Below the pieces are notes generated by a model. The model had not been told where the DNA came from. It searched no databases and worked only from the letters and a program-made list of their open reading frames with translations. The position numbers and the translations under genes were made by a program. From contig JAUNSK010000009.1 of NCBI GenBank assembly GCA_030539275.1, positions 1 through 64,000 on the forward strand: DNA of 64,000 nucleotides, read 5' to 3'. Source of the DNA: Oscillospiraceae bacterium. GTDB taxonomy: Bacteria; Bacillota; Clostridia; Oscillospirales; Ruminococcaceae. Numbering within the stretch: the first letter of the stretch is position 1; every line of letters starts with the position of its first letter. Shown piece by piece: positions 13,413 to 40,611 of this stretch.

Positions 13413-13589
13413 TATATAATGTATCATAATGGCTATTTATGTATCTGTTTTTATTATAATAGTATATCACAGTAAATTTCAAATAGCAATACTTTTGAAG
13501 ATTTATTGCCTGATGATTTAATGGTATTGTCTCAGACAATATTATACAATGGAGAACAGGCTATTAACAAAAAGGAGGACCAAACACCT

Positions 13590-16500
13590 ATGGTGAATGT
13601 CAAGCCTAAGCAGCTCGGAAAGAATGTCAGAATGAGCTTCGGAAAAATTAACGAAGCACTTGAAATGCCTAATCTTATCGAGGTGCAGAAAAATTCTTAC
13701 AAATGGTTTAAAGAGGAGGGACTTAAGGAGGTTTTCCACGATGTAGCGGCTATAACCGACTATAACGGAAACCTGGTTTTAAATTTTGTTGACTATAAGA
13801 TTGATGACACTCCCAAATACTCAATTGCTGAATGTAAAGAACGTGACGTTACTTATGCGGCACCGCTCAGGGTAATTGCTACCCTATGGAATAAAGAGAC
13901 CGGTGACGTTAAGGAAAGCGAAATTTTCATGGGCGATTTTCCGCTTATGACAGACAGCGGCACCTTTGTAATCAATGGTGCAGAGCGAGTAATTGTATCG
14001 CAGCTTGTAAGATCACCTGGTGTTTACTATTCATACGAGAAAGATAAGACAGGTAAAAATCTTTATAAATCGACAGTTATTCCTAACCGCGGTGCATGGC
14101 TTGAATATGAAATGGATTCTAATGATGTTGTCTATGTAAGAATAGACAAGAACAGAAAGATTCCTCTCACAACATTTATCAGAGCACTTGGAATAGGTAC
14201 AGATGAAGAAATTGAAGAGATGTTTGGCTTCGATGAAAGACTCAACCAGACAATTCTGCAGAAGGACGGCACAAAGAATAATTCTGATGCGCTGATTGAT
14301 GTTTACAAAAAGCTGCGTCCGGGTGAACCACCTACTGTTGAAAGTGCTCTTTCACATCTTAATAATCTGTTCTTTGATGCAAAGAGATATGATCTTTGCA
14401 GATTTGGCCGTTATAAATACAACAAAAAATTAGGCATTGCTTCAAGACTGGTCGGTCATGTACTTTCAAGACCTGTTGTAAATTCACTTACAGGCGAATT
14501 TATGGCTGATGAGGGAGATACAATAAGCTTTGAAAAGGCTTGTGAGATCGAACAGGCAGGTGTATACGAAGCATTTGTCAATGTTGACGTAAAGGAAGAC
14601 TATACTACTCCGACAGGTGAGAAAAAGGTCAAGCTTGTTCAGAGAGAAGTTAAAATAATAGGAAACGGCATGGTTGATATAACAGGTTATGTCAGCTTTG
14701 ATGTTTCAAAATACGGTATAAATGAAAAGGTTTCATTCAAGGTTCTCAAGGATATACTTGAAAGCTCTGCTGACGAGGAAGAACTTGAGGAAAATGTCAG
14801 GAAGAGATCAGAGGAACTTGTTCCTAAACACATCATCCTTGATGATATATATGCAACAATAAGCTACTTCCTTAACCTATGCAACGGAATCGGCCTTGTT
14901 GATGATATCGACCACCTTGGAAACAGAAGAATCCGCAGTGTCGGTGAACTTCTTCAGAACCAGTTCAGAATCGGATTTGCAAGAATGGAGAGAGTTATCC
15001 GTGAGAGAATGAACCTTCAGGCTCAGGATATGGATACTATCACTCCTCAGACTCTTGTAAATATCAGACCAATTACTGCAGCAATAAAAGAATTCTTTGG
15101 ATCATCTCCGCTGTCTCAGTTCATGGATCAGACCAATCCTCTTGCTGAGCTTACACATAAGAGACGTCTTTCAGCACTTGGTCCTGGCGGTCTTTCACGA
15201 GACAGAGCCGGATTTGAGGTTCGAGATGTTCACTACAGCCATTACGGAAGAATGTGTCCTATCGAGACTCCTGAAGGTCCTAACATCGGACTTATCTCAT
15301 ATCTTGCAACATTTGCAAGAATCAATGAATATGGATTCATCGAGGCACCTTACAGAAAAGTTGACAAGTCAACAGGCGTTGTAACAAACGAAGTTGTTTA
15401 TATGACAGCTGACATAGAAGATAACTATGTTGTAGCACAGGCAAATGAACCTCTTACTGAGGACGGAAAGTTTGCAAGAGCAAGAGTCAATGCCCGTTAC
15501 AGAGAGAAGATCCTCGAATGCGAAAACGATAAGGTTGATTACATGGATGTATCACCTAAGATGGTTGTATCTGTAGCTACTGCAATGATCCCGTTCCTTG
15601 AAAACGATGATGCGAACCGTGCCCTCATGGGATCAAACATGCAGAGACAGGCAGTTCCGCTTCTTAAAACCGAGAGTCCTATCGTAGGAACAGGTATGGA
15701 ATATAAGGCTGCTGTTGACTCAGGTGTATGTATCGTTTCAGAATATGAAGGTTATGTACAGAGTGTAAGCGCAGATGAAGTTATCATAAAGGATACAGAC
15801 GAGCTTGAACACAAATACAAGCTTACAAAATTCAAACGTTCAAATCAGGGAACATGTATAAACCAGAGACCTATCGTAAGTGTAGGCGAACAGATCAAAA
15901 AGGGTCAGGTTCTTGCTGACGGTCCTGCAACATGTGACGGTGAGATCTCACTCGGTAAAAATGCCCTCATCGGCTTTATGACATGGGAAGGCTATAACTA
16001 CGAGGATGCCGTACTTCTTAACGAAAGACTTGTACGAGAAGATGTTTATACATCTGTTCATATAGAAGAATATGAAATAGAGGCCAGAGATACAAAACTC
16101 GGACCTGAAGAAATAACAAGAGATATCCCTAACGTAGGTGACGATGCTCTCAAGGATCTTGACGAAAACGGTATTATCCGTATAGGTGCTGAGGTCCATG
16201 CAGGTGACATACTTGTAGGTAAGGTAACACCTAAGGGTGAAACAGAACTTACTGCTGAAGAACGTCTGCTCAGAGCTATTTTCGGTGAAAAGGCAAGAGA
16301 AGTCAGAGACAATTCACTTAAGGTACCTCACGGCGAAGCCGGTGTTATTGTTGACGTAAAGATATTTACAAGAGACAACTGCGATGAGCTGAGTCCCGGA
16401 GTAAATATGCTTGTACGCTGCTATATCGCTCAGAAGAGAAAGATCTCTGTCGGAGATAAGATGGCCGGCCGTCACGGAAACAAGGGTGTCGTTTCAAGAA

Positions 16501-17423
16501 TACTTCCTCAGGAAGATATGCCGTTCCTTCCGGACGGAACTCCGCTTGATATAGTTCTTAACCCTCTCGGCGTTCCTTCACGTATGAATATCGGTCAGGT
16601 TCTTGAAGTTCATCTTGGTATGGCCTGCAAGGCACTTGGCTGGAAGATCATGACTCCTGTATTTGACGGTGCTCATGAAGAAGATATCCGTGCATGCTTC
16701 AACGAAGCAGATAAGCATCTCAAACAGGTTGATAATCCTGATATGCTCTTTAACGGTGTTGACTTCAATGAAGACGGCAAGTTTACTCTGTATGACGGAA
16801 GAACAGGTGAACCTTTTGACAATAAGGTTACAGTAGGATATATGTACTATCTTAAACTGCATCACCTTGTAGATGATAAAATCCATGCACGTTCAGTTGG
16901 TCCTTACTCACTTGTTACACAGCAGCCTCTCGGCGGTAAAGCGCAGTTCGGCGGACAGCGTTTCGGTGAGATGGAAGTTTGGGCTCTTGAAGCTTACGGT
17001 GCCGCATATACGCTGCAGGAAATTCTGACAGTCAAGTCAGATGATACTGTAGGACGTGTTAATACCTATGAGGCTATTGTCAAGGGTCAGAATGTACCGA
17101 AGCCAAGCTTCCCTGAAGCATTCAAGGTTCTTATCAAGGAACTTCAGTCACTTGGTCTCGATGTAAGAGTTCTTGATGAAAACAAGGAAGAGATAGATCT
17201 TAAACAGACTTACGATGATGATGATATAATACCACCTCCAGTATCATCCCCTGATGATTCATCTATGCCGAAGGAACCGGACTACTTTGATTCAGAGGAA
17301 GGTGAAGACTCAGGTCTTACCGTTTCTGAAGAAGAAGAGGATCTTGATACCTTTGATGATGACAGCAGCAATATTGAAGACAACTTCAATTTTGATGATC
17401 TGACAAAAGATGAGGATTTTTAA
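13590..17423 (+). CDS. rpoB: DNA-directed RNA polymerase subunit beta
   Basis: 1277 residues from the ATG at 13590, chosen because AAAGGAGG lies 11 bases upstream; an open frame extends 28 codons further back but has no ribosome site. All beta landmarks are present, including the rifampicin region [20 protein letters not shown] followed by [13 protein letters not shown]. There the residues matching E. coli Q513, D516, H526 and S531 are the drug-sensitive type. [16 protein letters not shown] and the C-terminal [19 protein letters not shown] are also intact. The last 70 or so residues form a strongly acidic tail with many Asp and Glu, absent from E. coli beta. It is followed by rpoC after 103 nt. 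Confidence 0.98.
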
Positions 17424-17458
17424 AACAGCTAATTATTTGATCGGAATATGAGAGCTTG

Positions 17459-17505
17459 GGGGCAATAAGAAATTCCCGTAAAACGGAGTTTCTTTCGCTT
17501 GCCTC
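17459..17505 (+). promoter_or_regulatory. Two-level hairpin in the rpoB-rpoC spacer
   Basis: GGGGCAA (17459-17465) pairs with TTGCCTC (17499-17505), and inside it AGAAA..TCC pairs with GGA..TTTCT. No T run follows, so this is not a normal terminator. It lies 10 bases before the AGGAGG ribosome site of rpoC and may act in RNA processing or in setting the rpoB to rpoC ratio. That role is inference. Confidence 0.45.
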
Positions 17506-17526
17506 TTATAATAGGAGGATAACGCT

Positions 17527-20500
17527 TTGGAATTTAACGAATTCAAATCCATAAAAATCGGGCTGGCTTCACCGGAACAGATTCGCGCATGGTCATACGG
17601 GGCAGTTGAAAGACCGGAAACAATAAACTACAGAACACAAAAACCTGAACGTGACGGTCTGTTCTGCGAAAAAATATTCGGACCAACAAAGGACTGGGAA
17701 TGTCACTGCGGTAAATTCAAGAAGATCAGATTCAAGGGCAAGGTTTGTGACCGCTGCGGAGTTGAGGTTACACGTGCCAAGGTAAGACGTGAAAGAATGG
17801 GACACATTGAGCTTGCAGCTCCTGTATCACATATCTGGTATTTCAAAGGAACACCGTCCAGAATAGGTCAGGTTCTTGAAGTATCACAGAAGCGCCTTGA
17901 AGAAATACTTTACTTTACAAAATATATAGTTGTAGACGCGGGCAACACCACAGAGCTTCTTAAAAAACAGCTTCTCTCTGAAAAAGAATATCTTGATGCA
18001 CTTGAAAAGTACGGCGATGATTTCTATGCTGAGATGGGTGCTGAGGCAATAAAGGAGCTTCTTGAAGAGTACGATCCGGACAGATATGACGAATATATAA
18101 CACAGCATATTGAAAAGTTTGCAAAGGTTACAGGTATTCCTGAGAGAGAGATAATCGACTATCTTTCAAAGAGAATATATGTTATTGCAGATAATGCTGA
18201 AAATGAAGAATACGAAATTGGTCAGGTAGTAAGAAGATCTGTTTATCTCCAGAAGATCATGCGCTTTAACAGAGAGCAGGAGGAGAGAGGCAAGAAGAAG
18301 TTTATTACTGTAAAGACCGGTTCACAGTATATAGAAGAGATATTTAACAAAAACATAGCTGAGGCTAATGAAAACGGCGAGTATGATGAGATAGCAAACA
18401 AGGATAACTGGGTAAACAGCCTTGTATGGCTTTCAGAACAGCTCAAGGATGAACTTAAGGATCTTCCTTCAGGCCAGAAAAAAATCAAGCTTCTCAAGAG
18501 ACTTGAGATCATTGAAGCCTTCAGACTTTCAGGCAATAAACCTGAGTGGATGGTAATGGATGTTGTTCCTGTAATACCTCCGGAACTGAGACCTATGGTA
18601 ATGCTCGACGGCGGACGTTATGCTACTTCAGATCTTAATGATCTTTACAGAAGAGTTATTAACAGAAATAACAGACTTAAGAGAATGCTGACTCTTGAGG
18701 CACCTGACATCATTATCAGAAATGAAAAACGTATGCTTCAGGAAGCTGTTGATGCCCTTATAGACAACGGCAGACACGGCAGACCAGTTACAGGACCTAA
18801 CAACAGGGCACTCAAGTCATTATCTGACATGCTCAAGGGTAAACAGGGACGATTCAGACAGAATCTTCTCGGTAAACGTGTTGACTACTCAGGACGTTCA
18901 GTTATCGTTGTAGGACCGGAGCTCAAAATGTATCAGTGTGGTCTTCCTAAGGAAATGGCTCTTGAACTTTTCAAGCCTTTCGTACTCAAGAGACTTGTTG
19001 ATACAAAGGTTATTGCAAACATAAAGAGTGCAAGAAAGCTTGTTGACAGAGCAAAGACAGAAGTCTGGGATGCTCTTGAAAATGTTATCAAGGATCACCC
19101 GGTTCTTCTTAACCGTGCCCCCACACTTCACAGACTCGGTATCCAGGCATTCGAGCCTATACTTGTTGAAGGCCGTGCACTTAAGCTCCATCCTCTTGTA
19201 TGTACGGCATATAATGCAGACTTCGACGGAGACCAGATGGCTGTCCATCTTCCGCTTTCTGCTGAAGCACAGGCAGAAGCAAGGTTCCTTATGCTTGCTG
19301 CAAACAACCTTCTGAAACCGTCAGACGGACGTCCGGTTGCAGTTCCTACACAGGATATGGTACTCGGTTCTTACTATCTGACAATGCTCAAGGAAGGTGA
19401 ACTTGGCGAAGGCAAGGTATTCAAGGATATCAATGAAGCCCTTATGGCATATAATGAACATGCTGTTTCACTTCATGCTGCTGTAAAGGTAAGAGTAACA
19501 AAGGACATCGGCGGCAGAAAGGTTTCAAAGATCATTGACTGTACTGTAGGCCGACTCATATTCAACGAAAATATTCCTCAGAATCTCGGTTATATAGACA
19601 GAACAGACTCAGATAAGCAGTTCGATCTTGAGATCGCATTCCTCGTAGGCAAAAAACAGCTTTCAGATATTATTGAGAGATGTATCAGAATACATGGAAC
19701 AACTACAACTTCTGAGGTTCTTGATAAAATAAAGGCTCTTGGATTTAAGTATTCCACAAAGGCTGCTATAACGGTTGCAGTCTGTGATGCTGTTATCCCT
19801 CCGCAGAAAAAAGAAATTCTTGAAAATGCACAGGGAGAAATTGATGAAATAACAGAACAGTACGAATACGGTTATATTTCAGCAAATGAAAAATCCAAAA
19901 AGGTTATTAAAATATGGAACAAGGCAACAGATGATGTTACCGTTGCACTGAAAAATAATCTTGGTAAGTATAATCCGATCTTCATGATGGCCGATTCAGG
20001 TGCCCGTGGTAGTATAAACCAGATAAGACAGCTCGCAGGTATGCGTGGACTTATCGCCAACACATCAGGTACAACAATCGAGATACCGATCAGATCAAAC
20101 TACCGTGAAGGTCTTAATATCCTCGAATACTTCATTTCTTCACGTGGTGCCCGTAAGGGACTTGCTGATACAGCGCTCAGAACTGCTGACTCAGGATATC
20201 TGACAAGACGTCTTGTTGATGTATCACAGGATGTTATTATCCGTGAATGTGACTGCGGAACTGAAGATGGTATTGACATTTATGAGATCAAAAACGGCAA
20301 TGAAATGATCGAGCCGCTTTCAGAACGTCTTATTGGTCGTTATCTTGCTGAAAACTTCTGCGATCCTGAAACAGGAGAGGTAATAGTAAGCAAGAATAAA
20401 CTTCTGACAGAGACAGAGGCAAAGAAGATATGTTCTTATGGTATAGACAAGATCAGGATCCGTTCAGTACTTCACTGTAAGGCTAAACAGGGTGTATGTG

Positions 20501-21411
20501 CAAAATGCTATGGTGCAAACCTTGCAAACGGAAATCTTGTTGCAGTCGGTGAAGCAGTTGGTATCATTGCAGCGCAGTCTATCGGTGAACCTGGTACACA
20601 GCTTACAATGAGAACATTCCATACAGGTGGTATCGCGAGTGCAGAAGATATCACACAGGGTCTTCCACGAGTTGAGGAACTGTTTGAAAGCCGTCGTCCT
20701 AAAAATGCAGCTATCATATCAAGAATAGATGGTACTGTAAAGATCGAAGAAGTTAAAACAACTAAAAATGTTATTATCGTAAACGAAGAGACAGGTGAAG
20801 AGGAGTCATATATGATCCCTTGGAATCTGAAACTCAGAGTGCGTGAAAATATGTTTATTACAAAGGGTACACGTATTACAGAAGGTAACTGTTACCCTGC
20901 TGATATTCTGGCTGTTCAGGGAACTGAAGAAGTTCAGAACTATATAATCAGTGAAGTTCAGAAGGTTTACCGTCTTCAGGGTGTTGATATCAATGATAAG
21001 CATATCGAAGTTATCGTACGTCAGATGCTCAGAAAGATCAAAGTTGATGACAGCGGAAGCAGCTACCTCCTTCCTGGTTCACTTGTTGACAAGAAGGAAA
21101 TCGATGCTATCAATGCGCAATTGCAGCAGAGAATGGATGACGGCGAACTCGGACTTTCATTTGTTACAACAGTTCCTGTACTTCAGGGTATTACAAAAGC
21201 TTCTTCCAGTTCAGACAGCTTCCTTTCAGCCGCATCATTCCAGGAAACAACAAAAGCACTTACTGATGCTGCAATCAGAGGTAAGAGTGATAATCTGCTT
21301 GGACTTAAGGAAAATGTTATTATCGGTAAGCTTGTTCCTGCCGGAACTGGTATGGAAGTATATAACAAGGTTAAGATAGTAAAAAATGATTCAACACTGG
21401 CAGAACATTAA
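17527..21411 (+). CDS. rpoC: DNA-directed RNA polymerase subunit beta'
   Basis: 1294 residues beginning with TTG, 7 bases after AGGAGG. The N-terminal zinc site is [13 protein letters not shown] (about residues 58-80). The catalytic [14 protein letters not shown] is near residue 565. The second zinc cluster has C-D-C at CDCGTEDG and [12 protein letters not shown] further on. The bridge-helix and trigger-loop region [16 protein letters not shown] is intact. Length is somewhat longer than the shortest Firmicute homologues. It shares the rpoB promoter. A strong terminator follows 17 bases after the stop. Confidence 0.98.
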
Positions 21412-37990: not shown

Positions 37991-38923
37991 TTGAAGCCTG
38001 ATATAATTGTAATAACAGGACCCACTGCATCAGGGAAAACAGCCCTTGGAGTGGAAATGGCATTAAGGCATAACGGAGAAATAATTTCAGCCGATTCAAT
38101 GCAGATATATAAAGGTATGGATATAGCAACTGCAAAGCCGTCGGTTTCTGAGATGAAGGGTATCCCGCATCATCTGATAGGATTTCTTGATAATGATGCG
38201 GAGTTTTCAGTTGCTGATTATGTAGAACTTGCAAATGAAAAAATCCGGGATATACTTTCAAAGGGAAAACTCCCGGTGATAGTCGGAGGAACCGGTCTCT
38301 ACATCAGTTCGCTCACAAGCAATATAAGATTTGCTGATGTAAGAAGTGATCCCAGGCTTCGTGAAGAACTCGCAGCACAGGCCCGCAGCGAAGGAAATGA
38401 GGTGCTCCTTGAAAGGCTGGCTGCAGTAGATCCTGCAACTGCATCACAGCTTCACGCCAACAATCTTACAAGAGTGATCCGTGCACTTGAGGTCTATGAG
38501 CTTACAGGGAGAACACTGAGTGAACTTAATGAGGAAAGCAGAAAGTATGAGTCACCTTATAATTTTATAAAGGCCGGCATCAATTATACTGACAGGCAGT
38601 TTCTGTATGACAGGATAAATTCCAGAGTGGATGCTATGATAGAAGCTGGTCTCATTGAAGAGGCAAGACACATGTATCAGACATCACAGTCTATGAAAAC
38701 AGCACGCCAGGCAATAGGCTTCAAGGAGCTTATTCCATACTTTAAAGATGAACAGACACTTGAATCATGTATTGACAAGATCAAACAGGAAACAAGAAGA
38801 TACGCAAAGAGACAGCTGACCTGGTTCAGACGTGACGGAGAAATACAGTGGATTATGGCGGATAATACGTCTGATATAAATTTTTTTATAAAAAAATGTG
38901 AAAATATTATAGCCAAACAATAA
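37991..38923 (+). CDS. miaA: tRNA dimethylallyltransferase
   Basis: 310 residues beginning with TTG, 5 bases after AGGTGA. Transfers a dimethylallyl group to A37 of tRNAs that read UNN codons. Marks are the P-loop GPTASGKTALG, the substrate motif ISADSMQIYKGMDIATAKP, and GGTGLYISSL. It lies right after mutL, as in E. coli and many Firmicutes, where hfq follows miaA. The product of this reaction is modified further by MiaB, encoded upstream. Confidence 0.96.
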   Translation: MKPDIIVITGPTASGKTALGVEMALRHNGEIISADSMQIYKGMDIATAKPSVSEMKGIPHHLIGFLDNDAEFSVADYVELANEKIRDILSKGKLPVIVGGTGLYISSLTSNIRFADVRSDPRLREELAAQARSEGNEVLLERLAAVDPATASQLHANNLTRVIRALEVYELTGRTLSELNEESRKYESPYNFIKAGINYTDRQFLYDRINSRVDAMIEAGLIEEARHMYQTSQSMKTARQAIGFKELIPYFKDEQTLESCIDKIKQETRRYAKRQLTWFRRDGEIQWIMADNTSDINFFIKKCENIIAKQ

Positions 38924-38929
38924 TTTATG

Positions 38930-38938
38930 TGATATAAT
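38930..38938 (+). promoter_or_regulatory. Possible extended -10 promoter before hfq
   Basis: TGATATAAT is an extended -10 element about 140 bases upstream of the hfq start; no good -35 box is seen 17 bases before it. The leader has a GC-richer segment (39001-39032) with a GGAC/GTCC closing pair that may fold. Confidence 0.35.
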
Positions 38939-39081
38939 AAAAACACGTAGGCAAAAAAGTTATATCCAAGAAATAATAAAAAGAAAATTGTAAAGAAATA
39001 AGGACAGGCCCTTTCGCAGGAGAAGCAGGTCCGATTTATTGAGTTTATTTTATTTTATCTGCGAGGAAACGGAGTATCATT

Positions 39082-39333
39082 ATGAACAAACAGTTAAATT
39101 TACAGGATGTATTCTTAAACCAGGCACGTAAGGAAAAGATATCTATAACTATCTTCCTCATGAACGGTTTTCAGTTCAAGGGAATGGTTAAGGGCTTTGA
39201 CAGCTAGATCGTAATACTTGATTCCGACGGAAAACAGTATATGGTTTATAAGCATGCTATATCTACAATCATTCCTAACAGACACATTTCAATACTTGAC
39301 AATGCATCTGCTTCAGACGACAGGGAAGACTAA
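39082..39333 (+). pseudogene. hfq: RNA chaperone Hfq, reading frame interrupted by an amber codon
   Basis: The frame from ATG 39082 reads as Hfq over 83 codons. Sm1 motif residues [20 protein letters not shown] are followed by [17 protein letters not shown], then TAG (39205-39207, codon 42), then [19 protein letters not shown]. The Sm2 motif YKHAIS is intact. Codon 42 is the place of the conserved Phe or Tyr that stacks with RNA bases in other Hfq proteins; a TAT/TAC to TAG change would explain it. Reading stays in frame on both sides, so there is one event. TAG ends mutS and mutL, so the codon is used as a stop here. It could be a strain mutation, a sequencing error, or a codon read through. 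It ends directly at the start of the next gene. Confidence 0.85.
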
Positions 39334-40611
39334 ATGAATACGCGCACTACAAAGATGCTGCTGGGTCTTTTGATCATATTCATGACGCTGACAGTGGTTA
39401 ATGTTGTAGTTCATCTTTTCAAAAATGAATATGTTACCGAAACTGCTGTTGCTGTTTCCGCTTCAAATTCTGTTACATTTCATGGAGTATATGTACGTAA
39501 TGAAGAAGTCCTCAGTTATAACGGCAGCGGAGTCGTAAGCTATCCGATAGCTGACGGCGGAAGGCTCAGCCAGGGCGAAACAGCAGTATGTATATATGAT
39601 TCAGAAGAGCAGATACAGATAAGTAAAAGAATAAAACAGATCGATTCTGAAATAAGTACTCTGGAAAAGATACAGAATCCTGGTAATAAAGAGGTATCCC
39701 AGCCTGCTTATCTTGCCACCCTTATTGAGGAAAAATACAAAAGTATAGCATATTACAAAGAGATCGGCAATCTTACACAGCTTGCAAATGAAAAACAGGA
39801 ATTTCTCTTTTATATGAGTACTATGCAGTATGTAACTCAGGAAGTTAATGACTTTTCTGATAAGATCACAAGTCTCCAGGTTGAAAAGGATCGGCTGGAA
39901 AGTCAGCAGGAACAACCTGTAGAGCCTCCTCTCACGGCTCGTACTTCTGCATACTTTGTCAGTTATGCTGACGGATATGAAGATACACTTACTTATGATT
40001 CAGTAAATACACTAAGTGCCGAAGAACTGAATTCAATTACAGACTATTCAATGACTTCAAAGGTTCCGAATGCCGTAGGCAAGCTTATTTACGGATACAG
40101 CTGGAAAATTGTCGGAGTTATTGATGATCCGAGAAATACATTTGATAAAGACGACATCATTGATCTGTATTTTCCTTCATGTGCCAAGACCATTAATGGT
40201 ACGGTTGAGAGTATAAGGGATGCCGGCAGTGAAGGAAAAGTGATACTTACTATTGTCTGTACCGATATGTCTTATGATTTTGTTCAGCACAGGGCAGAAA
40301 CAGTAGAGATATCAAATCAGATATATGAGGGTATACGTATTCCAAGATCGGCTATCTGGGTACTTGATCAGGAAGAAAGCAGCAGTGTTACTTCTGCTGA
40401 TGCTGTTTTAACCACTACAGAGGGTGACAGCACAGCAAAGGACAACAGAAATAAGGGCGTATATATCAAGTATGGTGAAAAAGTTGTATACAAGAAAATT
40501 GATACTATATTTGAGGGCGATGATTTCGTTGTTTCAAAGCTTCACCCGACCGATGACGACTACGTTCAGCTGTATGATGATATGATTGTAAAAGGTGTTG
40601 ATATGGAATGA
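39334..40611 (+). CDS. HlyD-like membrane-fusion protein in the sepF-divIVA cluster
   Basis: 425 residues. One N-terminal membrane segment (MLLGLLIIFMTLTVVNVVVHLF), then a half-lipoyl-like part (GVVSYPIADGGRLSQGETAVCIYD), a coiled coil (about 90-190, with QIDSEISTLEKIQ), and a second barrel-like part. The C-terminal region contains YEGIRIPRSAIWV, typical of HlyD adaptors. No efflux transporter is next to it. Its ATG directly follows the hfq stop and its stop overlaps yggS by ATGA. The close link to yggS, sepF and divIVA suggests a cell envelope or division role, which is inference. Confidence 0.75.
   Translation: MNTRTTKMLLGLLIIFMTLTVVNVVVHLFKNEYVTETAVAVSASNSVTFHGVYVRNEEVLSYNGSGVVSYPIADGGRLSQGETAVCIYDSEEQIQISKRIKQIDSEISTLEKIQNPGNKEVSQPAYLATLIEEKYKSIAYYKEIGNLTQLANEKQEFLFYMSTMQYVTQEVNDFSDKITSLQVEKDRLESQQEQPVEPPLTARTSAYFVSYADGYEDTLTYDSVNTLSAEELNSITDYSMTSKVPNAVGKLIYGYSWKIVGVIDDPRNTFDKDDIIDLYFPSCAKTINGTVESIRDAGSEGKVILTIVCTDMSYDFVQHRAETVEISNQIYEGIRIPRSAIWVLDQEESSSVTSADAVLTTTEGDSTAKDNRNKGVYIKYGEKVVYKKIDTIFEGDDFVVSKLHPTDDDYVQLYDDMIVKGVDME

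Follow-up and report, generated by a model that had tools for sequence, protein, structure and literature searches.

Within the window (the whole 64,000-nucleotide stretch of DNA analyzed here), a forward-strand frame of 83 codons (39082-39333) is open except for a TAG at codon 42 (39205-39207). The frame begins with an ATG at 39082, preceded by a GGAG motif 8 to 11 bases upstream, and ends with a TAA at 39331-39333; the remaining two forward frames at the locus contain several stops each. The Pfam Hfq profile spans the internal TAG (E = 2.4e-31; 109.4 bits). Because this match crosses the stop and each half of the frame also matches Hfq alone, the hfq frame is not a product of chance. The genes and features at the locus are as follows.

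37991..38923, + strand: miaA, intact, 5' of hfq; near full-length match in 11 of 12 relatives
39082..39204, + strand: hfq codons 1 to 41 (N-terminal helix and part of Sm1); NCBIfam Hfq match of this part alone, E = 1.9e-15
39205..39207, + strand: codon 42, an in-frame TAG in place of the proximal-site aromatic residue; all 98 distinct relatives have Tyr or Phe here
39208..39333, + strand: hfq codons 43 to 83 plus TAA (Sm2 and C-terminal tail); NCBIfam Hfq match of this part alone, E = 2.6e-09
39334..40611, + strand: HlyD-family gene (Pfam PF12700, E = 6.6e-32); unbroken in 12 of 12 relatives compared

A preliminary description of this DNA had proposed an Hfq frame of 83 codons intact on either side of one TAG, with no frameshift and with its Sm2 motif kept. 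The frame reading and the Pfam match confirmed the first of these points, the reading from ATG to TAA in a single frame bore out the second, and the third agrees with the Hfq match of codons 43 to 83 and with the presence there of a YKH motif, which we take to be part of Sm2. Homology to Hfq (PF17209/TIGR02383) was accordingly found over both Sm1 and Sm2, and the uninterrupted frame of a hexamer-forming Hfq is broken by the TAG at codon 42. Judged by its sequence, the locus is an hfq gene by descent, and Hfq is only its putative product.

The upstream gene is presumably miaA, given the common order mutS-mutL-miaA-hfq; in the twelfth relative, its match was interrupted by a contig end. The ATG of the HlyD-family gene directly follows the hfq TAA, and an AGGGAAG stretch within the end of hfq is a possible ribosome site for it. 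Given this abutting start and the possible ribosome site inside hfq (39322-39336), the stop in hfq could alter translation of the HlyD-family gene. Both genes flank hfq in the relatives compared as well.

In the Hfq alignment of 98 distinct relatives, most of them from the Clostridia, the residue in column 42 is Phe (53) or Tyr (45) and never another. The aromatic residue at this position stacks on uracil on the proximal face of Hfq, according to passages of one report (PMC5379935). These data sustain the earlier identification of codon 42 as the conserved proximal-site Phe/Tyr. Tyr is found in all nine genus relatives with hfq, and Tyr codons are one substitution away from amber, as expected if a single-base change from a Tyr codon gave rise to the TAG. 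With X placed at codon 42, the Hfq translation is 87 to 92% identical to those of six genus relatives over codons 1 to 77, and 75 to 76% identical to those of three further genus relatives over 83 codons. A comparison with close relatives had been suggested, and hfq proved to be free of internal stops in all nine of these genomes. Nor was an in-frame stop at codon 42 present in any of the 98 distinct relatives, an absence that is characteristic of a nonsense pseudogene. The gene resembles the hfq of Ruminococcus and other Clostridia (PF17209 and TIGR02383) in its location after miaA and in its YKH motif; it differs in carrying TAG where all 98 relatives keep an aromatic residue. The loss of the aromatic residue itself is beside the point, however, because a stop at codon 42 removes the entire Sm2 half.

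A Pfam Hfq search of the genome's own assembly (3.68 Mb; 49 contigs; 96% complete) gave one match. We thus rejected a second hfq copy in this assembly, which the preliminary description had named as an observation that would count against it. Within the genus, Hfq was detected in 10 of 11 genomes, with one match each, and the internal stop was confined to the genome studied here; the eleventh genome, which had no Hfq match, is 88% complete. At the level of the family, Hfq was found in 156 of 297 sampled genomes (133 of the 221 good ones) and had no match in 141 (88 of the good ones). Among the matches listed in this survey, the internal stop is unique to the copy studied here. Hfq occurs in 70 of the 126 genera of the family, i.e., its spread is patchy. 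This distribution, read from genome sequences, suggests that the RNA chaperone may have been lost repeatedly in the family. Broken copies are rare and absence is common, and it seems that loss is frequent and that the intermediates are either short-lived or errors. With 141 of the 297 family genomes showing no Hfq, loss of hfq is unremarkable, and a broken copy is less of a surprise than the preliminary description had implied.

Genomes are known in which amber is recoded as a sense codon by means of a CUA tRNA. Such genomes resemble the present one in having an in-frame TAG in a conserved gene. They differ in that the TAG here affects one gene only among those compared, release factor 1 (RF1) is present, no normal CUA tRNA was found, and TAG serves as a terminator. 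RF1 is intact (534.3 bits; no stop). TAG ends 5 of the 43 window open reading frames (ORFs) of 150 codons or more, and mutS and mutL end in TAG, as had been stated. It also ends 3 of the 18 ORFs counted in a prophage of the same genome (18 of 27 ORFs; eight minus-strand ORFs and one overlapping plus-strand ORF were left out). Neither loss of RF1 nor depletion of TAG as a terminator was thus observed, and amber reassignment was rejected, in line with the earlier view that a genome-wide change of code is unlikely.

A narrower form of decoding, in which a suppressor tRNA or programmed readthrough would allow some full-length Hfq to be made, has the conservation of the codons downstream of the TAG in its favor. 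None of 48 tRNA places (Rfam tRNA model; ARAGORN on 47 loci) carries a normal CUA anticodon. The catalogue, built by scoring 150 of the 182 candidates from a first look, lacks Ala, Ile-GAU, and Leu-UAA tRNAs, and a suppressor could be missed in this incomplete set. The best match to pyrrolysyl-tRNA synthetase (PylS) scored 23.4 bits, below the cutoff of 178.15; of 14 control genomes, 13 gave matches at E <= 0.001, with one of these above the cutoff. No PylS was accordingly recognized, and the proposed check for an amber-suppressor tRNA turned up no normal CUA anticodon within this incomplete tRNA set.

The prophage (locus L183, contig C35:9600-29599) was recognized by eye from ORF translations (i.e., recombination, terminase, portal, and capsid-like ORFs), and it carries a tRNA-Ile(UAU) gene with an adjacent 38-bit tRNA-like gene.

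About L183:9913-10071, also L154:413-571: prophage tRNA pair (Rfam and ARAGORN)

The anticodon arm of the tRNA-like gene has 17 letters, compared with 11 in the Rfam model, and the letters CTA are present in it. We set this gene aside as a suppressor since its arm is abnormal and ARAGORN names a different anticodon. When the pair was sought in 40 relatives, the matches covered the tRNA-Ile part only; a search of this kind could overlook a diverged equivalent of the neighboring tRNA-like gene.

Programmed readthrough would be expected to show a stop that is conserved in relatives or followed by a stimulating structure. No RNA structure was detected in the 100 bases 3' of the TAG (fold z = +0.82), no Rfam family reached its gathering score at 38900-39400, and no relative compared shares the TAG. 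The earlier suggestion of suppression or readthrough thus gained no support, and the incompleteness of the tRNA set keeps its suppressor part alive. The abnormal prophage tRNA-like gene speaks for decoding; against it stand the intact RF1, the lack of a normal CUA tRNA in the places scored, the low PylS score, and the use of TAG to end ordinary genes, including genes of the prophage with the odd tRNA. We regard decoding of the codon as very unlikely. It is likewise scarcely probable that amber decoding, through an undetected suppressor tRNA or regulated leakiness, sets the dose of Hfq or the residue at its uracil-stacking site.

Translation from the start codon to the TAG would yield a product of 41 amino acids. 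A GGAAAA stretch precedes an ATG at 39241 (codon 54), and a split Hfq could be imagined in which codons 1 to 41 and a product restarted at this ATG act together. The restart product (30 amino acids), however, would miss codons 43 to 53, and no relative has an internal stop among the matches listed. We give this arrangement almost no credence.

To place the event in time, we examined selection on the branch leading to this genome. The lineage is distant from the relatives compared, i.e., MutS is 74.7 to 77.5% identical in seven relatives and IleS is 77.1 to 84.6% identical in eight (one partial), and this divergence of flanking genes from all compared relatives indicates that the terminal branch is long. 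The species tree comprised 11 taxa and was based on five flanking proteins; for the fixed-length test, branch lengths were taken from 707 flanking codons in 8 of the 11 taxa. With lengths fixed, the omega of hfq was 0.089 on the studied branch and 0.028 elsewhere (72 codons; 2dL = 3.75), or 0.144 and 0.036, respectively, when 78 codons including the loose tail were used (2dL = 8.53). The best fit for the neutral fraction of the branch was about 0.06; the range within 1.92 log units ran from slightly more than 0 up to about 0.16.

Among the control branches, G005 showed no departure (2dL of 0.05 and 0.03), and G001 and G007 departed downwards, with omega near 0 (2dL, 3.39 to 4.55 over both codon sets); with 72 codons, the values were 3.39 for G001, 4.29 for G007, and 0.05 for G005. 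Omega on the studied branch was also raised in three of four flanking genes, namely, miaA (0.29 versus 0.14; 2dL = 1.25), yggS (0.21 versus 0.08; 2dL = 3.16), and mutS (0.13 versus 0.08; 2dL = 1.86), and was lower in ileS (2dL = 1.53). Part of the rise in hfq may therefore be lineage-wide. When branch lengths were left free, the fits were unstable: omega was 0.68 with a length of 0.30 for 78 codons (2dL = 8.30), 7.7 with a length of 0.01 for 72 codons (2dL = 3.78), and 20 with a length of 0.01 for 72 codons with the outgroup removed (2dL = 6.65). We relied on the fixed-length test, since synonymous sites are close to saturated and the deepest part of the tree is weakly constrained.

At the amino acid level, a relative-rate test revealed no acceleration of Hfq (multiplier, 1.5; 2dL = 0.69; three control branches, 1.19, 2.49, and 0.0). 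The Hfq core contains two residues that are unique among 99 sequences, of which 57 have none, 23 have one, 8 have two, and 11 have three or more; two is within the ordinary range. Purifying selection acted on hfq over most of the branch, with omega far below 1, which agrees with the earlier proposal of a recent or tolerated event. We read these values as indicating that the gene was kept over most of the branch, that any loss would be recent, and that the traces of relaxation are weak.

The same data bear on whether the TAG is an artifact, be it an error of sequencing or assembly in the consensus or a variant confined to a minority, to a culture, or to a single mutant clone, with an intact hfq in the living population. 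The lesion is a single substitution in a gene of strong past conservation with no further lesion, the TAG was seen in one genome with no internal stop in any other of the matches listed, and the amino acid rate of Hfq is not raised, all of which would suit an artifact. The lack of a second lesion in hfq is expected equally from a sequence error and from decoding. On the other hand, no other in-frame stop was found within window genes where relatives provide coverage (about 29 to 49 and 57 to 63 kb), indicating an assembly that is not riddled with errors in this region. Nine further stop positions in the alignments lay upstream of a start or at the gene's own end; the scan kept 129 of 496 protein matches, and those dropped ran across a region better matched in a different frame. 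Lone substitution errors are rarer in consensus sequences than indel errors, and an error at codon 42 would be of this less common kind. We consider an artifact unlikely, albeit the main rival of a real null allele.

On balance, the TAG is probably a recent nonsense null allele of hfq, i.e., a pseudogene at its very start. In this reading, a nonsense substitution recently hit the only hfq copy found in this Ruminococcus-like genome, at the position (42) that is Tyr in its genus relatives, and translation would yield 41 residues and never reach the Sm2 motif. With the stop preceding this motif, no Hfq hexamer could form, making the allele null. The conserved frame, the one hfq match, the neutral fraction of about 0.06, the intact RF1, and the common absence of Hfq in the family all support a null allele, and the omega pattern together with the small neutral fraction fits a long-kept gene that was lost lately. 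If so, the TAG base would be real, readthrough would be absent, and the cell would do without Hfq, apparently like many other species of the family.

Changes in hfq are tolerated or favored elsewhere. In glucose-limited Escherichia coli chemostats, hfq mutations were eventually carried by more than 50% of the cells in every population, as described in passages of PMC7863352. That case differs in being laboratory evolution in another phylum, and the same passages are silent on which alleles were nonsense. Judging by the titles among the matches listed, the literature contained no natural hfq nonsense allele in Clostridia and nothing on point for hfq with Ruminococcus; for hfq pseudogenes, no paper was found. 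A broken hfq is an ordinary finding for a family often without Hfq and represents no new kind of system. If the base is real, this genome would present a global RNA regulator caught as it is lost, or close to that moment, in a family where about half of the sampled species have Hfq, and it could serve as a natural starting point for asking what role Hfq plays in rumen Clostridia.

Elsewhere in the window, rpoB and rpoC lie in tandem at 13506-21411, as identified from their Pfam domains; their listed starts are TTG and are perhaps misplaced.
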